Assembly: GCA_001787755.1 (NCBI GenBank)
Contig: MFYJ01000013.1
Location: 1 to 64,000, forward strand
Reading direction: 5' to 3'
DNA length: 64,000 bases
Source: Candidatus Peribacteria bacterium RIFOXYB1_FULL_54_35
Lineage (GTDB): Bacteria; Patescibacteriota; Gracilibacteria; Peribacterales; Peribacteraceae
Below the pieces are notes generated by a model, which saw only the letters and a list, made by a program, of their open reading frames with translations, was not told the origin of the DNA and did no database searches. Of the stretch, positions 19,270 through 30,589 are shown one piece after another. The position numbers and the translations under genes are program-made. How positions within the stretch are numbered: position 1 is the first letter of the stretch; every line of letters begins with the position of its first letter.

Positions 19270-20373
19270 CTAATTTCTGAACGGATGCTTCTCAATCATC
19301 TGGCTCACAAAGCCAGCCTGCTCCCGGGTTTCATCGAGGTGAAGATCACGGAAGAGCGATACCCAGTGAGAAAGAAGCATACGGGCTTCTGTGCTCGTGA
19401 ATGCACCGCCATCACTAATGTACGAATAGGGACTCTCCGCTTCCGGCTCGTGGAGATGTTTCCCATTCCCCCCTGACTGCTGGAGCTGAGAACCCACGAG
19501 AATACCCGGTATTGCCATCGCATTGAGCATCCCCAGCACCTGCTCGTTCTCCTTGAAACGACTCTGCCGGTCCCGTCCCCGGGAAGTCCGCAGGACCATG
19601 CCACGGAGCCCCCCGGTTCTCGCCGCTTCCACAGACGAAACAACCTGTCCCGCGGCATCTTCCAGATTAAACGTCTGCACAGAAGGATCTAAGTGGTATT
19701 CCCCCTCCTCTCCTATAGGAAGCTGTTCAGGTTTCCGCTCGTGGAAATACCACTTCTCTCCTTGCTTTCGGGCTATAGATGAGAAGCGAGATTCGAACGT
19801 TGTCGGTTCTCCCCTCCGATAGAGACCCGGGAGGGCAAAGAGCCTCCCCTGGTAAACAACACCTGCCCTGTTTGCCATCTCGGGCTTACTGGAAAGGCAC
19901 ACAGCATCCCTGAACGTACTGAAAGCATCAGTGCGATTATCCTCAGCGGTTCCGCTCGCACAGGCAAGAATGAGTGATTTGTGCGTACGGCTACCTTCCG
20001 GAGGATCCAACTGCAGATTCTCGGAGGGGACAGCTTCGGAGACTGCGGTGGCATAGGCCGGTGCGTGGAACGTGCTCACAAGAGCAATGATATGTTGTCT
20101 TGTCTCGAGCAGCCTCCGTAGAACCCGCACGAAATCTTCAATGCGCTCCGGCGTGACTTCGCTACTCTGAACGAGCTCTCTCTCATACGTTGTCACCCCC
20201 ACTCGATGAAAGCGCCTGCGCAGGTCACGAGACAGGGTGCTGACCATGCCTTTCACCACCCCCTTTGAGGCTTCGTGAGAAGCGTTAGAGCATATGGAGC
20301 CACCCTCACAGAGAACTGCGAGACGCGGTTTTTCGCACAACTCTTCCGGGGGATCAGCGTCTGGAATGTTCAT
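19270..20373 (-). CDS. Divergent asparaginase-like protein
   Basis: A 367-aa protein with the outline of the L-asparaginase fold but eroded catalytic motifs. LAVLCEGGSICSN takes the place of the TGGTI strand-loop, and the HGTDT region reads LVSTFHAPAYATAV. The C-terminal helix (TEARMLLSHWVSLFRDL) parallels the EAAYVKLKWAL helix of the real asparaginase 4 kb downstream. It is probably not an active asparaginase and may be regulatory or have a new substrate. The start is set at ATG 20373 (MNIPDADPP); a TTG at 20439 is possible. Homology is inferred from motif alignment by eye. Confidence 0.55.
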   Translation of the reverse strand: MNIPDADPPEELCEKPRLAVLCEGGSICSNASHEASKGVVKGMVSTLSRDLRRRFHRVGVTTYERELVQSSEVTPERIEDFVRVLRRLLETRQHIIALVSTFHAPAYATAVSEAVPSENLQLDPPEGSRTHKSLILACASGTAEDNRTDAFSTFRDAVCLSSKPEMANRAGVVYQGRLFALPGLYRRGEPTTFESRFSSIARKQGEKWYFHERKPEQLPIGEEGEYHLDPSVQTFNLEDAAGQVVSSVEAARTGGLRGMVLRTSRGRDRQSRFKENEQVLGMLNAMAIPGILVGSQLQQSGGNGKHLHEPEAESPYSYISDGGAFTSTEARMLLSHWVSLFRDLHLDETREQAGFVSQMIEKHPFRN

Positions 20374-20553
20374 AGGATGGCAGAAGTGAGAACATGACAG
20401 GAGAGGAACCAGGAACACACCGGTAGTCCCAAGCACCAATTTGGCAAGGAGTTACAAATTTTACGAATATTTCACCATTTGGCAATCTTTTTCAGGTGAA
20501 AATATCCTTCCGTTTTTGTCTCTTCCATGGCTGAAAAGGAAACCGGAAATCCG

Positions 20554-21840
20554 CTACCTCCTCCTGCCAGCGAGGTACGACTCGTAATCAGCAAACGCAA
20601 GCTGAACATACTCGAGAAGTTTTTTGCCATGATGCCCGTGTACCTGCACTCCCCGGCGCACAGCCTGGGAAACGAGGAGTTTTGCTTCCGGCCGTGCCAG
20701 TTTTCCACCGCTGAGCACCGGGCTCTTCTCTGTGCCTCCGGCCGCCTTATCCAGGTGCTCGCGCATGAGAGCGAAATCACCGCCATAAATAAAACCTCCT
20801 CTCCCACCCTCATCCTCTCCTGAACTGTGCGGCTGCAGAGGATCGCTGATGAGCACGACCGGCACATCCGCTTCCAGCCCGATCTCTGCTGCTTCATTCA
20901 CGCAAGCAAGCTCCTCTTCGCTCTGCCGCAGATTGCTGGAACCCGGAGCCTGCACCACCATAGCATTGAAATCAGTCTTCCTCGGAGACTTTTCTAGTAG
21001 CCCACCTCCCTGCTTGCGGCAGATCATTCCTTCCATGGCCGCCGGGAGATTCCCGTAGTGGGACAGAGGATCAAATCCCCAGCTCTCTATGCCATCCGCA
21101 AGCTCGTACTTATGCTTCATACCACGTGGCAAATGGGCGGGTTCGCTCTCCACGATATGCCAATCACGCTGCGGAGGTCTTTCAGATATACCCATTTGGT
21201 CAAACCGACAGTGGAACGGTTGTGGATCCTTCGTGTCTATTTTTACGAGGCCACGTGGAGGGAACAAAACCCCTCCGCAGTACAAACCTATGCGCCCGCG
21301 CATCTCATCCCTGGTGGAGAGGTAGATGGCATTGGTCAGATTGTCCACCGGTTCACATGCAGGCGGCGGGGATTCATCATACCTCGTTACTGGGAGATCA
21401 GCAGGTGCATGTGTTTGGGACACAACAACGATAATGTTCCGATCCCCAAGCATTTCCCGCGGCACCCCTTCGGCAAGAGCATGCATGAGATACGGAACAT
21501 TATCCGTGCCACTGGCAATGAGGAGATTGGCACCCCTCCTGGTCCTCTTGCGGATGTCCTCCACAGATTGCATGAGCAGACCTACATTCAACTCCGCGCT
21601 GTCAACAATGGGATCTGCTTCCGAATATGCTACAAGATCAACCATGCTCATCACTCTGTCGGGTACCTGGTTCTCGATCAGACTACGAATTTTGCCGGGC
21701 TGCGGAAGCAGCACTCTCTTCCTCCTGCCTCTCCTCGAATCATCTGCCTCATGCTCTTCACAGGAGATTGTCCCTCCGAATACCCGAACCTCGAGAGGAT
21801 GCCGGTGACTGAATCCATTGCTAGACACTAATATAACCAA
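20554..21840 (-). CDS. Divergent asparaginase-like protein, second copy
   Basis: A 428-aa paralogue of the gene next to it. RVFGGTISCEEHEAD matches the N-terminal GGTI loop, LIASGTDNVPYLMHAL matches HGTDTMAYTASAL, and ARPEAKLLVSQAV matches the C-terminal helix. Large insertions (about 160-270) separate the core blocks. It keeps GT and GTD, so it is closer to an active enzyme than the 19.3-kb copy. The start is TTG at 21840, with a GTG at 21828 as alternative. It is divergent from the RSH gene. Confidence 0.6.
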   Translation of the reverse strand: MVILVSSNGFSHRHPLEVRVFGGTISCEEHEADDSRRGRRKRVLLPQPGKIRSLIENQVPDRVMSMVDLVAYSEADPIVDSAELNVGLLMQSVEDIRKRTRRGANLLIASGTDNVPYLMHALAEGVPREMLGDRNIIVVVSQTHAPADLPVTRYDESPPPACEPVDNLTNAIYLSTRDEMRGRIGLYCGGVLFPPRGLVKIDTKDPQPFHCRFDQMGISERPPQRDWHIVESEPAHLPRGMKHKYELADGIESWGFDPLSHYGNLPAAMEGMICRKQGGGLLEKSPRKTDFNAMVVQAPGSSNLRQSEEELACVNEAAEIGLEADVPVVLISDPLQPHSSGEDEGGRGGFIYGGDFALMREHLDKAAGGTEKSPVLSGGKLARPEAKLLVSQAVRRGVQVHGHHGKKLLEYVQLAFADYESYLAGRRR

Positions 21841-21903
21841 GAACTAGACTAATTGTAAATTATAGTACAGAATATACAATCTGTATGACAAGAGCATTCT
21901 CTG

Positions 21904-21909
21904 TATAAT
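21904..21909 (+). promoter_or_regulatory. -10 box for the RSH gene, leaderless arrangement
   Basis: A perfect TATAAT ends 6 nt before the GTG start at 21916, so transcription would begin at or next to the start codon. No good -35 is seen. Confidence 0.6.
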
Positions 21910-21915
21910 TTCACT

Positions 21916-23973
21916 GTGAGCAAGATGAAGTCTCCCCCACCCGGCACACTCCGAGAAGCTGTAGAACTGGCTGAAAAAGCCCACAGAGGCCAAAAAAGGG
22001 CATCAGGGGAACCCTATGTGGAACATCCCAAAACAGTGGCAGAACTCCTGAAATACCTCCACGCAGGAAATGAAACACTCATTGCAGCCATGCTGCACGA
22101 TACGGTGGAAGACACTGATGTCACCCTCAAACAGCTGCAGGAGGAATTTGGACCTGTCGTCTCCAAGCTGGTGGAAGGGGTGACAAAAGTCCAGAAGGTC
22201 GAGAAAGACATCGATCCGCATGAGCGGAGCATGCAATCCATCCACAAAATGTTCGGAGCCATGGGGCGGGATATCCGCGTCATTTTCATCAAGCTTGCAG
22301 ACCGGCTGCACAACATGCAGACCATCGGGCACCTCCCGCAGGAAAAACAGCAGCGTATAGCCCGCGAAACCCTCGATATTTTCTGCCCGCTCGCCAATCT
22401 CCTCGGCATCCGGCTCTGGTATCAGGAACTCTCGGACAGGGCACTCCGAGTACTCGATCCCGCCCAGTACGACCTCCTCGAGCGCAAGAGAAAATCTGCA
22501 ACAGATAAAAATCTCAAGCACCTCCAGAACTGGGTACAGCGCATGCGAACGTACCTCCGCGACAACGGATTTAAAAACTTGAAAATCGTACTGCTCCCCA
22601 GGCATCTCTACAGCATCTGCGAATCGACGCATACGCAAACTGCGCTTCTCCAGCACATTGAAACGTTCTTCCACATTTCTGTCATCACCAGAAACCAGGA
22701 TGATTGTTACTGTGCGCTCAATTACCTGCATCAGTTTGCGTCATCACTCCCCCATCACATCCAGGACTACGTCGCCCATCCCAAAACAAACGGGTACAGG
22801 GCGCTCCACACCACCGTGATGTCGTCTCTCGGTAATCCCATCAAAATTATCATTCAGACCGATGAAATGCATCAGGAAGGACTTTTTGGCGCGGCACTTC
22901 CCTACCAGCAGCACATGGAGAAAAAGTGGCAGCGTCTGCCGACGTGGATCGACCAACTCCTGTCCCTTGAGCACGACACCCAGGATCTGCCCCAGTTCTT
23001 CCAGGCAGTCCAGTCGGAGATTTTCGGCGATCGGTTCCGCGTGCATATCGTAGGCGAGAAACAGAAATTCATTGATCTGCCCAGCCACTCCAGCATGCTG
23101 GATGTTGCATTCCATATTGGAGACAGAAAAGCCATGTACGTGAAGAATGTCATTGCCAACAGTGAGCCTTCGAGCCTGAAACGCATCATCCAGGACGGAG
23201 ATGTGATCGAATATGCGTATGCGAAACACAGGAACCAGCGGAGTGCGGAAGATCTCGTATTCGTCCATACGTCAGCTGCCCAGAAACTCCTCGTGGGGAA
23301 CCTCTGTGCTCTTCCCAGGAGAGAACTCCTGCAACATGGGAGAAAAATCGTCTCCCATACACTCGATGTCACCATGGATCCTTTCCTCTCTACTGCCTGG
23401 AAAAAGGGTATTGCGAACCGCCTCTGCAGCAATAAACGGACCATCGAACACGTCGGATGCGGTCTGCTCAATACGTTCGATCTTCTCGGGGGCCAATGCA
23501 TAGCCTCCGATTTCTTCCTCGTCGATCCGCACCTCTTTCAGTTCACTTCCCGGCTCACGCCGAAGCAGCGAATGCGCTTCATCCTCCGGACAACACTGGA
23601 GAACTTGCGAGATAAACTAGTGATCGGCCAGCAGATTCGCCCAGACGTCATAGACATCCTCTCTATTGATGATGAGGAAATACGACAGCATGCGCACATC
23701 AGAGAACTGGTTCCGCTCACCATTGGAAAGATCGACTTGCTTCAGCACCCATTTCACTTCGCACTGATGTGGTTCTTCGCGCAGGGAAGCAACCCTCTGA
23801 AAACAATTGCGAATCTCCAGAATCTTCTGGATACTCCACTCGAACTCCGGGAGTTCAACCGCTCGTCCCTCACGCTTGGTTTCCATACGGATCGCATAGG
23901 AACCTTGCAAATAGCGTATGAGTACCTCTCCAGCCAGCCAGATATCGAAAGGATTGTCCGTATCTCCCCTTAA
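21916..23973 (+). CDS. RelA/SpoT homologue with intact hydrolase and degenerate synthetase
   Basis: A 685-aa RSH protein controlling (p)ppGpp. The HD hydrolase (about 15-190) keeps H37, H61-D62, E65-D66 and KLADRLHN. The synthetase region (about 205-330) is recognisable (LPRHLYSI, DYVAHPKTNGYRALHTTV) but has lost key positions: the EVQIRT Glu is replaced (IIIQTDEMHQ), and the YDLLAVR Asp region reads FFHISVI. A TGS domain (about 375-435) and a C-terminal ACT-like region (about 600-685) follow. It is expected to degrade rather than make the alarmone. The GTG start lies 6 nt after a TATAAT. Asparaginase follows after 11 bp. Confidence 0.9.
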   Translation: MSKMKSPPPGTLREAVELAEKAHRGQKRASGEPYVEHPKTVAELLKYLHAGNETLIAAMLHDTVEDTDVTLKQLQEEFGPVVSKLVEGVTKVQKVEKDIDPHERSMQSIHKMFGAMGRDIRVIFIKLADRLHNMQTIGHLPQEKQQRIARETLDIFCPLANLLGIRLWYQELSDRALRVLDPAQYDLLERKRKSATDKNLKHLQNWVQRMRTYLRDNGFKNLKIVLLPRHLYSICESTHTQTALLQHIETFFHISVITRNQDDCYCALNYLHQFASSLPHHIQDYVAHPKTNGYRALHTTVMSSLGNPIKIIIQTDEMHQEGLFGAALPYQQHMEKKWQRLPTWIDQLLSLEHDTQDLPQFFQAVQSEIFGDRFRVHIVGEKQKFIDLPSHSSMLDVAFHIGDRKAMYVKNVIANSEPSSLKRIIQDGDVIEYAYAKHRNQRSAEDLVFVHTSAAQKLLVGNLCALPRRELLQHGRKIVSHTLDVTMDPFLSTAWKKGIANRLCSNKRTIEHVGCGLLNTFDLLGGQCIASDFFLVDPHLFQFTSRLTPKQRMRFILRTTLENLRDKLVIGQQIRPDVIDILSIDDEEIRQHAHIRELVPLTIGKIDLLQHPFHFALMWFFAQGSNPLKTIANLQNLLDTPLELREFNRSSLTLGFHTDRIGTLQIAYEYLSSQPDIERIVRISP

Positions 23974-23984
23974 GTGAAGACTGT

Positions 23985-25001
23985 ATGAGTGCATCCAAGC
24001 CATCACTGCTCATCCTGTACTGCGGAGGGACCATCGGCATGCGGCAGGATGTCCGCACCTCCGCACTGCAGCCGAAACTCTCCGCAGAGGAACTCATTGA
24101 GTACGCCCCGTACCTCACGAAAGAATTCAACATCCGGATGCAGACCATTACCAACTTAGACAGCACGAATTTCCAGCCGCACCACTGGGAAGAGATAGCC
24201 GATGCCATCTACAGAGAGTACGACAACTACGACGGCTTTGTAGTGATCCACGGGACAGATACCATGGCATACACCGCTTCTGCTCTCTCGTACGCCCTCG
24301 GGAACCTCGGCAAGCCGGTAATCCTGACAGGCTCGCAGGTGCCGCCGGACATTCTCGGCACGGATGCCGTCTCCAACCTCGTGAATGCCTGCCTCGCCGC
24401 CACCATGGACTTTGCGGAAGTCGCCATCGTCTTTGGAACAGATATTCTCCGGGGAAACCGCAGCATGAAGATTAGCGAGAGCAAGCGCAATGCATTCATC
24501 TCCCCTGTGTTCCCGGAGCTCGGCTCCATCCGCCTGCAGCCCGAGATCACATACCAGTCCATCCCGCGACGGCATGGAGGCCCGCTGGATTTTAAGAATG
24601 CGTTCAAAGGAAACGTTGTTGTCCTCAAGATCACGCCGGGCATACATCCGGAAACTATTTCCGCCATCGTGGATTCCAAGATCGACGGACTCATCTTGGA
24701 ATCCTTCGGCCCCGGCAACATCCCCAACCGCGAGACAAATCTCCTCCCACCTATCAAAAAGGCACGGAAGAAGGACATTCCCGTCCTCATCTCCACGCAG
24801 TGCATCTACGGCACCACCCGCATGTACCTCTATGAAGTAGGACAGAGCGCCATGGACCTGGGTGTGATTCCCACGGGAGATATGACGCCGGAAGCCGCGT
24901 ACGTCAAGCTGAAGTGGGCACTCGGGCAGACAAAGGACGGCAAGGAGATTGAGAAGATATTCGCGAAGAACATTGCAGGAGAGGTGACGATCCCTGACTG
25001 A
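23985..25001 (+). CDS. ansA: L-asparaginase, type I
   Basis: Hydrolyses asparagine to aspartate and ammonia. The 338-aa cytoplasmic enzyme keeps the first catalytic Thr in LYCGGTIGM and the second motif VIHGTDTMAYTASAL, then LTGSQVP and a C-terminal GDMTPEAAYVKLKWAL. The length fits type I enzymes. It lies 11 bp after the RSH gene, so the two may be co-transcribed, linking amino-acid catabolism to the stringent response. A GatD-like amidotransferase role is less likely because no GatE partner is present here. Confidence 0.93.
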   Translation: MSASKPSLLILYCGGTIGMRQDVRTSALQPKLSAEELIEYAPYLTKEFNIRMQTITNLDSTNFQPHHWEEIADAIYREYDNYDGFVVIHGTDTMAYTASALSYALGNLGKPVILTGSQVPPDILGTDAVSNLVNACLAATMDFAEVAIVFGTDILRGNRSMKISESKRNAFISPVFPELGSIRLQPEITYQSIPRRHGGPLDFKNAFKGNVVVLKITPGIHPETISAIVDSKIDGLILESFGPGNIPNRETNLLPPIKKARKKDIPVLISTQCIYGTTRMYLYEVGQSAMDLGVIPTGDMTPEAAYVKLKWALGQTKDGKEIEKIFAKNIAGEVTIPD

Positions 25002-25639: not shown

Positions 25640-28600
25640 ATGTTTGACCCTGTCGACCCCAAGCAGAGCCTCCCGAGTCTCGAAGAAGGAATTCTCCGCT
25701 ACTGGCGCGAGGAAGACATCTTCAAGCGCAGCCTGAAGCAGCGCAGCCGCGGGACGACGAACAAACCCTGGGACAGCCCACAGGGCGGAGACGCTGAGCA
25801 GTACTCTTTCTACGACGGCCCCCCCTTCGCCACGGGGCTCCCCCACTACGGACACCTGCTTGCCGGAACCATCAAGGACGTAATCCCGCGGTACCAGGCG
25901 ATGCGGGGGAAGTATGTAGAACGCCGCTTCGGGTGGGACTGTCACGGCCTGCCGATAGAGAACATGATTGAGCAGGAGAACAACATTAAGAACAAGCAGG
26001 AGATAGAGGAACGCGGCGTCGGCTGGTTCAACGATCTCTGCCGCGCGTCCGTGCAGAGGTACACGAAGGAGTGGCGGGAAATAGTAGAGAGGATGGGGCG
26101 GTGGGTGGACATGGACTGGGACTACCGCACCATGGACCCGGAGTACATGGAAAGCATGTGGTGGGCATTCTCCGAGCTCCACAGAAAAGACCTCTTGTAC
26201 GAGGGGCATAAACCCATGCACATCTGCCCGCGCTGCGTGACCCCCCTGAGTAACTTTGAGGTGACGCAGGGGTACGCGGATATCACGGATCAGTCGGTGA
26301 CGGTGAAATTTGAATTGACCGATGAGCCGGGAACATTCATTCTCGCGTGGACCACAACGCCGTGGACACTGCCAGGGAACTTGCTCCTGGCCATTAATCC
26401 AAGTGTTGAATATATCAAATTCAAGTATAAAAACGAGATACTTATCGTTGCCAAAGAAATTTGGGATCATCGGAAAGAAAGTACAAGCATCCTCCGCCCA
26501 GTGACCTACTCCGGAACGGAGGATTTTGAGGAAATAGCTCATGTGATCGCAAATCCATTTAGCGGGAAGGAACTTGTTGGACTGAAATATAAACCACTCT
26601 TCCCTTACTTCGAGAAAGAGTATGGAGATGCTGCTTTCCGTATCGTAGAAGGAGATTTTGTTTCCACAGATGAAGGCACGGGCGTCGTGCACATAGCTCC
26701 CGGCTTCGGTGAGGATGACTTCAATGTTGGCAAACGGGAAAATCTGAAACTCCTGCAGCACGTCACTATGGACGGCAAGTTCACGGAAGCGGTGAAGGAC
26801 TTTGCGGGCATGGATGTGAAGCCGAAGAACGACCCGATGAAGACGGACAAGATGGTGGCGGACTGGCTGGAGAAAAAAGGAAAACTCTTCAGCAGGGAAA
26901 CCTACAGGCACAGCTACCCGCACTGCTGGCGCTGTGACTCCCCTCTCCTCAACTATGCCACGAGCTCCTGGTTCGTGAAGGTGGAACAGATAAAGGAAAA
27001 GATGCTCCGCAACAACGCCAAGACCGAGTGGATGCCCGCATCGATCCGGGACGGCCGCTACGGGAAGTGGCTGGAGGGAGCGCGTGACTGGGCCATCTCC
27101 CGCAACCGGTACTGGGGCACGCCGCTGCCCATCTGGCGGAATGAACACGGTGATATGGATGTCATCGGCAGCCGCGACGAACTGATGGATGAGAAGCGCA
27201 TCCGCTTCACGAAGATCACTGCACTGCGCCACGGGGAGAGTGAGGGGAACCTCATTCCCATCTATCAGGGAAAGGTTCCGGGTACAAACTTAACGCAGAG
27301 CGGGAGGAAGCAGGCAAAAGAAATCGCCAAGCACTTTAAGAACGAGAAGATCCGGACCGTCTACTGTTCCCCCCTCTCCCGCACCAAGCAGACGGCGGAG
27401 ATGCTCGCGAAGCAGCTCGGCGCAGAGGTGAGAGTGGATGAGCGCCTGCGGGAAGTTTCCTTCGGCGAGTACGAGGGGAAGACCGTGGACTTCTCGGATC
27501 TCTCCTTCCTTAAGGCGCGGCGTGCGCACAAGCTTGATTCCGGGAAACCGGAGAGTATCTACCACTTCGAGGGAATGGAAACATGGAATTCCGTGGCGAA
27601 GCGCATAGAAAGCTTTATGAACGACGTGCTCCCCAGACACAGGAGCGAACACATCCTCGTGGTAACGCATGCAGACCCTGTGCAGAACATCCGTTCGTTC
27701 TTCACGGGACAGGATCCTATGAAACTCTCGCACCAGCCGTACCCGCGCTACCTGCAACCCTACACATTCTTCTGGGACCATGACCGCTGCGAGCAGATGG
27801 ACCTGCACAAGGACAAGGTGGATGAGATCCGGTGGCAGGGATCTGCATGCGAGAAGAGCATGTACGTGACGATGGTACGTCACGGGGAGACGGCATCGAA
27901 CAAAGACCGCGCAATCCAGGGATCACAAATCGATCTGCCTCTGAATGAAAATGGCAGGGAGCAGGCGCGTGATCTTGCGAGGAAACTGAAGAAACAGAAG
28001 TTTGATATCGTCATCTCTTCCGACCTCAAACGTACATCGGAAACCGCCGCCATCCTCTCGAAGGAACTTGGCATTCCTCTCGCACCCCCACTCCCTCTCC
28101 TTCGTGAGAGAGATTTTGGGAAATGGAGCGGGAAGCCGTTCAAAGAGTTCTTGGAAGCACATCCGCCAAAGAATGATGCAGTACAACCTGCCTTCCATCA
28201 CTCACCGACAGATGATTGTGAAAGTCTCTCCGCATTCCTCCATCGCGCTGAGCAGGCAACCGATCAGCTTCTCCGGGATTATGCAGGAAAAAAAGTGCTT
28301 CTGGTCGGGCACGGGGGGATGATGCAGTGCCTCTCCGTGCTCGCAGACAATTTAAGCTACGATGAAGGTGTTGCTGCACGAGTCGGGAATGCAGAGAAGG
28401 TCGAAATTCGCATTGATCCCTACGTGAAGCGCATCCCGGAGGTAGTGGACTGCTGGTTCGAGAGCGGCTCCATGCCCTACGCCCAGCGGCACTATCCCTT
28501 CGAAGTGGGAGACAGAGACCGCAAGACTCCTCCCGCTTTCCCGGCCGACTTCATTGCGGAAGGGCTGGACCAGACCCGTGCATGGTTCTACACGCTGATG

Positions 28601-30025
28601 GTGCTCTCCACCGCCCTCTTCAATGAAACGCCGTTCAGGCATGTGGTGGTGAACGGCATCGTACTGGCTGAAGACGGGAAGAAGATGAGTAAAAGACTGC
28701 GCAACTACCCGGACCCGATGGAGGTGGTGTCGCGCCACGGGGCGGATGCCGTGCGTTTTACGCTGATGAGCAGCCCGGCTGTGCGCGCGGAAGACCTGCG
28801 GTTCTCCGAGAAACTCGTGGAAGAGACCGTGCGGAACGTGCTTCTGCCCTTGTGGAATATCTACAGCTTCTTCATCACCTACGCAAACGCGGCAAAGTTT
28901 GAGCCTGTCGTGAGCAGGACGCACTCCAGCCATCCGCTCGATACGTGGATCCGGGCCGAGATGCAGGATCTGGTGAACAGGATGACGAAGGAACTCAACA
29001 ACTACGACCTCTCCGCCACCTGCAACGAACTCCACGAAACTATCGATGCCATCACGAACTGGTACATCCGCCTCTCCCGCCGCCGCTTTGCCGGCAAGGG
29101 GGCGAGAGACGTAGTGGATTCCACCGGAGACATAGAGGAAGAAGAGCAGCATGATGCGATCGCAACGCTCTACGACGTGCTGCTGACCGTCTCCCAGCTC
29201 CTCGCACCGTTCTGCCCGTACATCACGGAAGCCATCTACTTGAATCTGGTCCCGGAGGAGCACCATTCCATCCATATGACAGACTGGCCGGAACCGCGTG
29301 AGCTCTCGAAGCAGGAAAAACAACTCTTAGCCAAGAACCGCCTGATGAGACTGCTCGTCTCACTGGGCCTCTCCATCCGCGCAGAACAGAAGATTAAGAA
29401 CCGCCAACCGCTTGCGAAAGCAACCGCAGCCCTTCCTCCTTCCCTCCGCAGCACGGTGCGGCTTTTGGAGGAAGACCTCGCACTGCTGCGGCAGGAACTC
29501 AACGTGAAGGAAATTGCCTTCGTCGATGACCCCGGAGCAATCGCAGAGAGCTACGTACAGGTAGATGCAAGGAAGGTTGGTCCACGGCTGGGTGCGCGCG
29601 TGCAGGAAATCATTCAGGCCGGGAAACAGGGGGAATTCGAAGCGGAGGAAGACGGGAGCATCTTTGTGCTCGATGAGCAGCTGGCACCAGACGAGGCAAG
29701 AGTGGTGTACCGGGGCCGGGAAGGCGAGAACATCGCTGCGGACCAGGGTGTGGTGGTGAGTTTAGATACAACGGTGACAGATGCACTCAGGCTCGAAGGC
29801 GATGCGCGCGACCTCATTCGCACCGTACAGCGCCTGCGCAAAGAAACAGGACTCTCCTTCACGGACCGCATCACACTGCAGGTACAGGGTGCAGACGAGC
29901 TTCTGAAACAGTATGGGGAACTCATTGAGCAGGAAACACACTCCTCGCTCGGAAGTGCAGGAGGTGATGATCACACGATGGCACTCGGAGACCGCAAGGT
30001 GACGGTACGCTTCGTGAAGCAGTGA
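25640..30025 (+). CDS. ileS: Isoleucyl-tRNA synthetase with two inserted histidine-phosphatase domains
   Basis: A 1461-aa class I synthetase charging tRNA-Ile, about 400 aa longer than usual. The HIGH motif is PHYGH (about 70) and KMSKR lies near 1015. The blocks around DCWFESGSMPYAQ and FPADFIAEGLDQTRAWFYTL are of the eukaryote/archaea-like IleRS type. Two phosphoglycerate-mutase-like domains are inserted in the catalytic core. The first (about 525-700) has RHGESEGN (R530-H531) and a second His in VVTHADP. The second (about 740-920) has RHGETASN (H748) and LLVGHGGM. Between them lies the IleRS segment DLHKDKVDEI, so these are two separate insertions. Both phosphatase sites look intact. Confidence 0.95.
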   Translation: MFDPVDPKQSLPSLEEGILRYWREEDIFKRSLKQRSRGTTNKPWDSPQGGDAEQYSFYDGPPFATGLPHYGHLLAGTIKDVIPRYQAMRGKYVERRFGWDCHGLPIENMIEQENNIKNKQEIEERGVGWFNDLCRASVQRYTKEWREIVERMGRWVDMDWDYRTMDPEYMESMWWAFSELHRKDLLYEGHKPMHICPRCVTPLSNFEVTQGYADITDQSVTVKFELTDEPGTFILAWTTTPWTLPGNLLLAINPSVEYIKFKYKNEILIVAKEIWDHRKESTSILRPVTYSGTEDFEEIAHVIANPFSGKELVGLKYKPLFPYFEKEYGDAAFRIVEGDFVSTDEGTGVVHIAPGFGEDDFNVGKRENLKLLQHVTMDGKFTEAVKDFAGMDVKPKNDPMKTDKMVADWLEKKGKLFSRETYRHSYPHCWRCDSPLLNYATSSWFVKVEQIKEKMLRNNAKTEWMPASIRDGRYGKWLEGARDWAISRNRYWGTPLPIWRNEHGDMDVIGSRDELMDEKRIRFTKITALRHGESEGNLIPIYQGKVPGTNLTQSGRKQAKEIAKHFKNEKIRTVYCSPLSRTKQTAEMLAKQLGAEVRVDERLREVSFGEYEGKTVDFSDLSFLKARRAHKLDSGKPESIYHFEGMETWNSVAKRIESFMNDVLPRHRSEHILVVTHADPVQNIRSFFTGQDPMKLSHQPYPRYLQPYTFFWDHDRCEQMDLHKDKVDEIRWQGSACEKSMYVTMVRHGETASNKDRAIQGSQIDLPLNENGREQARDLARKLKKQKFDIVISSDLKRTSETAAILSKELGIPLAPPLPLLRERDFGKWSGKPFKEFLEAHPPKNDAVQPAFHHSPTDDCESLSAFLHRAEQATDQLLRDYAGKKVLLVGHGGMMQCLSVLADNLSYDEGVAARVGNAEKVEIRIDPYVKRIPEVVDCWFESGSMPYAQRHYPFEVGDRDRKTPPAFPADFIAEGLDQTRAWFYTLMVLSTALFNETPFRHVVVNGIVLAEDGKKMSKRLRNYPDPMEVVSRHGADAVRFTLMSSPAVRAEDLRFSEKLVEETVRNVLLPLWNIYSFFITYANAAKFEPVVSRTHSSHPLDTWIRAEMQDLVNRMTKELNNYDLSATCNELHETIDAITNWYIRLSRRRFAGKGARDVVDSTGDIEEEEQHDAIATLYDVLLTVSQLLAPFCPYITEAIYLNLVPEEHHSIHMTDWPEPRELSKQEKQLLAKNRLMRLLVSLGLSIRAEQKIKNRQPLAKATAALPPSLRSTVRLLEEDLALLRQELNVKEIAFVDDPGAIAESYVQVDARKVGPRLGARVQEIIQAGKQGEFEAEEDGSIFVLDEQLAPDEARVVYRGREGENIAADQGVVVSLDTTVTDALRLEGDARDLIRTVQRLRKETGLSFTDRITLQVQGADELLKQYGELIEQETHSSLGSAGGDDHTMALGDRKVTVRFVKQ

Positions 30026-30181: not shown

Positions 30182-30589
30182 ATGGCTTCTGAAGGCGGCC
30201 TTTCCCTCCCGGCCCGCGTGCTGCTGCGCGCAGTGCTGAACATTGTCCTCGTGTGGGTGCTTGCAGAGTACTTCTACGCCTACTTTGAACTCACCGGAGG
30301 CCTTGCAGCATACGTCATAGTGGGTTCGCTCCTCACGCTCATGAATCTCTTCATCCGTCCGCTTCTGGAAGTCATCACGATTCCCATCAAGCTTTTCTTC
30401 GCCACCCTGCTTGCCATCATCATCGTGAACGGCATCTTCGTGGAACTGACGATCTACATCGTGGAACAAATGCAGGACGGCCTCGTGACGCTGGAAGTGC
30501 ACAACAGGCTCTGGGGGTGGGTGGTGGTGGCCACGATCCTGGGCACAGGAAACTGGCTGATGAAGATTGTTCTGAATGCGGGTAGATAG
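30182..30589 (+). CDS. Holin-4-superfamily-like membrane protein (DUF360/PF04020 type)
   Basis: A 135-aa integral membrane protein with about four hydrophobic segments (about 13-32, 40-60, 70-92 and 108-132). The pattern TLMNLFIRPLLEVITIPIKLF...NGIFVELTIYIV is characteristic of the PF04020 family, often labelled phage holin family 4, found outside phages and of unknown function. No phage genes are nearby, so a lysis role is not implied. It is downstream of ileS after a repeat array. Confidence 0.8.
   Translation: MASEGGLSLPARVLLRAVLNIVLVWVLAEYFYAYFELTGGLAAYVIVGSLLTLMNLFIRPLLEVITIPIKLFFATLLAIIIVNGIFVELTIYIVEQMQDGLVTLEVHNRLWGWVVVATILGTGNWLMKIVLNAGR

Follow-up and report, generated by a model that had tools for sequence, protein, structure and literature searches.

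The window analysed here, 64,000 nucleotides from Candidatus Peribacteria bacterium RIFOXYB1_FULL_54_35 (contig MFYJ01000013.1), carries an ileS gene whose product, a type-2 (eukaryote-like) isoleucyl-tRNA synthetase (IleRS), holds two active-looking histidine phosphatases (HPs) inserted at two different points of its catalytic core. We favour the reading that this is a real bifunctional enzyme, in which phosphatase modules that work autonomously are retained on account of their tethering to IleRS or to valyl-tRNA synthetase (ValRS), and would give it a probability of roughly 0.45.

Two phosphatases inserted in an intact synthetase

The open reading frame at 25640-30025 on the forward strand encodes 1461 amino acids without internal stops, and its product matches the ileS model TIGR00392 with 838 bits (cut-off 621.4, E 9e-252). 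A genome search returned a single IleRS in the 1.56-Mb genome (one match at E<=1e-20), and as the only one found it presumably charges tRNA(Ile) normally. Its closest solved structures are eukaryotic-type IleRS. The original prediction described an otherwise intact synthetase, which is borne out by the HIGH-type motif PHYGH, the editing motif TTTPWTLPGN (aa 238) of connective peptide 1 (CP1), DCWFESGS and KMSKR, all of them preserved; the domains of an IleRS are completed by a PF08264 anticodon-binding domain beside the HIGH/KMSKS motifs and the editing domain.

Pfam model PF00300 matches the protein twice, with 155.6 and 133.5 bits against a gathering score of 21.7 (whole-protein E 1.1e-83). 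Both inserts, HP-A and HP-B, carry the complete catalytic set (R-H/R/E/H) that had been predicted for them, namely R530, H531, R581, E605 and H677 in HP-A and R747, H748, R798, E823 and H891 in HP-B. When aligned, IleRS of the class that lack inserts show '...PLPIW...CIGS.EELEKLSGKKVTDLHKHFVDEI....CGGEMKRIPEVLDCWFESGS' and the window protein runs '...PLPIWRNEHGDMDVIGSRDELMDEKRIR<HP-A>WDHDRCEQMDLHKDKVDEIRWQGSACEK<HP-B>IDPYVKRIPEVVDCWFESGS'. In insert-free IleRS the two flanks are connected by a 'DLHKHFVDEI' segment, to which DLHKDKVDEI (aa 721-730) aligns, so there are two insertion points rather than one, as originally proposed. It follows from the same alignment that HP-A takes the place of a short stretch ahead of DLHKH and HP-B that of the tip of the next hairpin; relatives without HP-B have a plain hairpin, 'WKDRSGNTFRR', at this site. 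The gene is laid out as follows, with CP2 standing for connective peptide 2.

25640..30025, + strand: ileS, type-2 IleRS with two embedded HPs
25841..25855, + strand: HIGH-type motif PHYGH (aa 68-72)
26270..26923, + strand: CP1 editing domain (aa 211-428), including TTTPWTLPGN and GEDDF; from these motifs and a match to the solved IleRS editing domain 1wk8
27209..27775, + strand: HP-A, site A of the CP2 region (about aa 524-712); PF00300
27800..27829, + strand: DLHKDKVDEI, the IleRS segment kept between the inserts
27857..28426, + strand: HP-B, site B, at the CP2 hairpin tip (about aa 740-929); PF00300
28430..28471, + strand: RIPEVVDCWFESGS, where the chain re-enters the synthetase core; from alignment and motifs
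28682..28696, + strand: KMSKR motif (aa 1015-1019)
28940..29416, + strand: anticodon-binding domain PF08264; Pfam profile
29486..29953, + strand: C-terminal DUF5915, PF19302; Pfam profile

In an AlphaFold2 model of aa 1-1150 (predicted local distance difference test, pLDDT, 90.7; predicted template modelling score, pTM, 0.89) both HPs fold on an intact synthetase, and a Foldseek search with the model ranked IleRS structures first. Modelled alone, HP-A reached a pLDDT of 94.3 and a template modelling score of about 0.8 to both the phosphoserine phosphatase 4ij6 and PhoE 1h2e. Neither HP reaches any NCBIfam equivalog cut-off, those of the named subfamilies (CobC, PspA, dPGM, SixA, MutT1) included, the best scores being 107.6 for HP-A (dPGM_arch, cut-off 225) and 125.6 for HP-B (CobC, cut-off 162.9), and for this reason no substrate is assignable to either.

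The inserted active sites are conserved and under selection

An assembly chimera, or dead inserts that the synthetase tolerates, could in principle give rise to such a protein, and inserts do degenerate in one family of the class, f10 (genomes G044 and G055). We regard this explanation as extremely improbable. The original prediction had named a chimera and a loss of the catalytic histidines in relatives as grounds for doubt, and neither was found. The chimera is ruled out by dozens of independent assemblies with the same architecture, among them 42 of the 49 Peribacteraceae genomes, single-contig ones included, and independently named Peregrinibacteria/Peribacteria metagenome-assembled genomes. 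The catalytic residues are in turn the most conserved positions, which refutes dead inserts for Peribacteraceae: class-wide, all five are present in 72/72 HPs at site A, 46/47 at site B and 30/32 at site D, so that dead inserts are ruled out for these three sites and degenerate ones are confined to f10. Within Peribacteraceae alone the set is complete in 49/49 HP-A and 42/43 HP-B copies, and in an alignment of 49 diverse HP-A the invariant columns are the R, H, R, E and H of this set plus five further positions. Site-A HPs recovered from other classes of the phylum have it intact in 16/16 copies. For the HPs of ValRS the full set is present in 11/17, or in 15/17 when the variable acidic residue is disregarded.

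We also considered whether the HPs might be nested genes with starts of their own and rejected this, since 44/49 HP-A copies have an ATG in the 25 codons upstream of RHG but a Shine-Dalgarno-like site was present in only 7, and in none of 41 HP-B copies.

Purifying selection acts as strongly on HP-A as on the synthetase, and HP-B evolves faster. Between near pairs, the ratio of nonsynonymous to synonymous substitution rates was 0.06-0.20 for HP-A, 0.06-0.15 for the synthetase core and 0.17-0.46 for HP-B (all below 1), and mean identity within Peribacteraceae falls from 0.64 in the core to 0.59 in HP-A and 0.42 in HP-B.

Phosphatases occupy four positions of IleRS

Close relatives of the window protein belong to Candidatus Peregrinibacteria, Peribacteria and Peribacteraceae. 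Every one of the 49 IleRS examined from Peribacteraceae contains HP-A, and 42 contain HP-B as well; the forms that lack HP-B occupy at least five places on the core tree, and HP-B was probably lost at least five times. Across the class the number of HPs per IleRS ranges from zero to three, and every copy lies at one of four positions in the core, which we call A (h~495), B (~514), C (~550) and D (~680); because the copies sit at just these four points, the sockets are specific. Genome G268 carries a tandem HP-B. For the other Patescibacteria classes we sampled 192 genomes, in which recovered counts are lower bounds, and found at least 16 IleRS with a site-A HP and at least 2 ValRS with an HP. 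The trait, noted from a single genome in the original prediction, extends over the phylum. In two families (f6 and f15) ValRS holds one to three HPs, most of them at the equivalent loop following GH.IPVWY. A ValRS from genome G058 (L118:1000-5298), 1433 aa long, has its three HPs distributed over two places.

IleRS and ValRS are nearly exclusive HP hosts; the others are single cases, an alanyl-tRNA synthetase (AlaRS) in G058 and UvrB in G042. The former is a class II AlaRS whose inserted HP lacks the acidic catalytic residue (L119:2797-5982), and in the latter an HP and a PF06821 serine hydrolase are inserted between the helicase blocks (L115:2561-5935). Three D-2-hydroxyacid-dehydrogenase-like proteins (L191, L193, L164) bear a C-terminal HP as ordinary terminal fusions. 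A contig labelled Candidatus Lloydbacteria (L146) encodes an IleRS that matches the window protein over aa 1-832 at 56%, through either transfer or misbinning.

Related phosphatases, and probable turnover at site B

In a phylum-wide HP tree, one clade with 98% support gathers almost every copy from site A, those from site C, some of those from site D and the HP of UvrB. One ValRS HP and a single long-branch stand-alone HP also fall in it, and it contains no credible stand-alone HPs; one site-A copy of the class (L126) falls outside it. Most ValRS HPs form a separate 98% clade, joined by the AlaRS HP, which is closest to ValRS HPs. For the UvrB HP, the closest relative is the HP in the IleRS of its own genome (identity 0.37). 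An origin of the AlaRS HP from within the ValRS HPs was tested and the nesting was not upheld (p-AU 0.564, approximately unbiased test). First trees suggested that HP-A and HP-B were acquired independently; a common origin of the Peribacteraceae A and B copies was not rejected (p-AU 0.545).

In several genome pairs the HP-B of a genome resembles that of a more distant relative rather than that of its nearest one. G243, for example, shares 0.87 identity with G034 in the core and 0.46 in HP-B, as against 0.65 in the core and 0.67 in HP-B with G012. From such comparisons HP-B seems to have been replaced or exchanged between lineages. The narrower proposal that HP-B alone was exchanged horizontally was not upheld, as windows of the ileS core also conflict with the core tree and the tree test does not single out HP-B.

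A module that is seemingly fast-changing, exchanged and often lost is what an arms race predicts, and kinases that inactivate synthetases exist, namely HipA acting on GltX and HipT on TrpS (PMC6581861). The HPs might then serve as a built-in antidote which dephosphorylates the synthetase itself or its tRNA after attack by a kinase-type toxin or a phage enzyme. This we consider very unlikely. HP-A evolves slowly, the window protein found no match in a PADLOC search for anti-phage defence systems, and HipA_C kinases occur in 0/40 Peribacteraceae genomes; an antidote to a HipA-type kinase was accordingly rejected, and any such kinase would have to be of another kind or external.

Other enzymes in the same sockets

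HPs share the IleRS loops with other enzymes. A NUDIX domain lies in CP1 near h222 in the IleRS of G042, G074 and family f10, the serine hydrolase PF06821 occupies site B in f14, and a GNAT domain sits at site C in G040, with another GNAT-containing insert nearby in the IleRS of G058. In G041 an IS200-like Y1 transposase domain lies in frame inside the CP1 editing domain (L071:2323-6255, aa 383-535). Two very long IleRS, one of 1932 aa (L174:1201-6996) and one of 1739 aa (L087:2863-8079; TGA read as Gly), embed a NUDIX domain, two HPs and a serine hydrolase.

So mixed a set of occupants, the transposase domain included, together with UvrB and AlaRS as hosts, is what one would expect if the CP1, CP2 and CP3 loops were merely permissive and a housekeeping phosphatase gene had lodged in an essential gene, where its loss is harder, for reasons unrelated to charging. 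The lack of any stand-alone HP in 29 of the 51 genomes with an embedded HP fits the same account, which we judge rather unlikely. Stand-alone HPs occur in 22/51 genomes with an embedded HP versus 25/45 without (Fisher p 0.31), so that no association was found that would make the embedded HP a replacement for a missing stand-alone one. Moreover, hosts that are almost only IleRS and ValRS, the latter with HPs of another clade at an equivalent loop, are not expected of a random passenger.

The co-occurrence of NUDIX and HP in the IleRS of families f8, f10 and f14, and the fact that most hosts are synthetases with editing domains, lend themselves to an explanation by local clean-up, in which the substrates of the embedded HP, NUDIX, GNAT and serine hydrolase domains would be adenylates, dinucleoside polyphosphates such as Ap4A, or inhibitors resembling aminoacyl-adenylates that are produced or bound at class I synthetases. 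We hold this, too, to be unlikely. The Peribacteraceae IleRS has its HPs without NUDIX, UvrB is also a host, and in MutT1 the activity that has been studied is that of the NUDIX domain, the RHG domain being described as of unknown activity (PMC11784022). A simple role in pyrophosphate removal was rejected as well: soluble pyrophosphatase I is found in just 11/40 Peribacteraceae genomes, but a membrane pyrophosphatase in 36/40.

A broader and decidedly improbable proposal is that IleRS and ValRS of Patescibacteria are modular platforms, whose fixed loop sockets would take exchangeable enzymes (phosphatase, NUDIX hydrolase, acetyltransferase, serine hydrolase) that jointly protect the synthetases by degrading or undoing the by-products, inhibitors or modifications directed at them, with HP-A as the old constant and HP-B as the fast-turnover module.

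A bifunctional enzyme with tethered modules

In the bifunctional enzyme that we favour, two apparently competent branch-1 HPs are plugged into two CP2 loops of the sole, type-2 IleRS of the cell, as sequence, conservation and a confident model show. Judging from the conserved R-H-R-E-H set, they would act as autonomous modules through the phospho-histidine mechanism of the superfamily. Tethering to IleRS or ValRS would keep them always co-expressed with the synthetase and locally concentrated at it. Their likeliest job would be to clear a small phosphorylated compound, either a by-product or an inhibitor, of importance around these synthetases. In this reading HP-A is an old and strongly constrained component of IleRS; HP-B, in the socket next to it, is a second module that is dispensable and changes faster. 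The original prediction proposed that charging could be coupled to dephosphorylation of a nucleotide, an alarmone or a phosphorylated tRNA or amino acid; the presence of HPs in UvrB and AlaRS and at four sites of IleRS argues against one rigid catalytic coupling of this kind.

Two observations weigh against this reading. Outside Peribacteraceae the HPs are patchy, with about a dozen families of the class (f4, f16, f18, f23 and f26 among them) having no HP in the IleRS sampled, and the UvrB of G042 hosts both an HP and a serine hydrolase where synthetase chemistry plays no part.

Comparison with known systems

Our literature search found no paper that joins a tRNA synthetase with an embedded histidine phosphatase, and no published description of the architecture, in keeping with the original prediction. 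Type-2 IleRS (TIGR00392; 8wnd, 6ldk, 1ile and the Priestia IleRS2 8c8v) share with the window protein the core, the CP1 editing domain, HIGH/KMSKS and the C-terminal region, but the solved relatives are without phosphatase inserts. The nearest catalogued relative in kind is NF040702, an IleRS that likewise bears an extra enzyme domain, in this case GNAT and not HP; the window protein scores 254.4 against its cut-off of 1999 and shows no GNAT in a Pfam scan. Branch-1 histidine phosphatases (PspA/iPSP 4ij5 and 4ij6, PhoE 1h2e, CobC) have the fold and catalytic residues of the embedded HPs, although they are free-standing enzymes. Mycobacterial MutT1 (NUDIX-HP) and RNase H-HP (PRK07238) likewise combine an HP with a nucleotide- or RNA-metabolising enzyme, but these are terminal fusions with other hosts, whereas the HPs of the window lie within a host domain. 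Domains placed in loops of the synthetase Rossmann core are familiar from the connective-peptide insertions, CP1 and the editing domain of leucyl-tRNA synthetase, an insertion module of a class I synthetase (PMC13114784), among them; those editing domains are ancient, and no HP, NUDIX, GNAT or serine hydrolase modules at CP2, CP3 or other loops are described for them. The window IleRS is a domain-bearing synthetase, of unusually wide and conserved distribution.

Genomic neighbourhood

A RelA/SpoT-like gene lies near ileS in the window (21916-23973), and in roughly a dozen further loci of Peribacteraceae, RelA/SpoT homologues adjoin ileS on the opposite strand; this arrangement is a possible hint at an alarmone link. 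Downstream of ileS, 30182-30589 encodes a small membrane protein that is found beside ileS in most Peribacteraceae and in several other families. Upstream, the region 19270-25001 includes an asparaginase-like gene (23985-25001) and two more asparaginase-like open reading frames on the reverse strand, adjacent to each other (19270-20439 and 20554-21840).

Significance

tRNA synthetases rank among life's most conserved enzymes, and whole working enzymes of another kind would not be expected in their core loops. In one of the largest groups of bacteria, fixed IleRS and ValRS loops serve as sockets for active-looking phosphatases and other enzymes; one socketed phosphatase is kept at the same point, with its active site intact, across several classes. 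The architecture may account for annotation oddities in many such genomes, and it points either to a need linked to the charging of isoleucine and valine or to a means of transmitting genes within essential genes.

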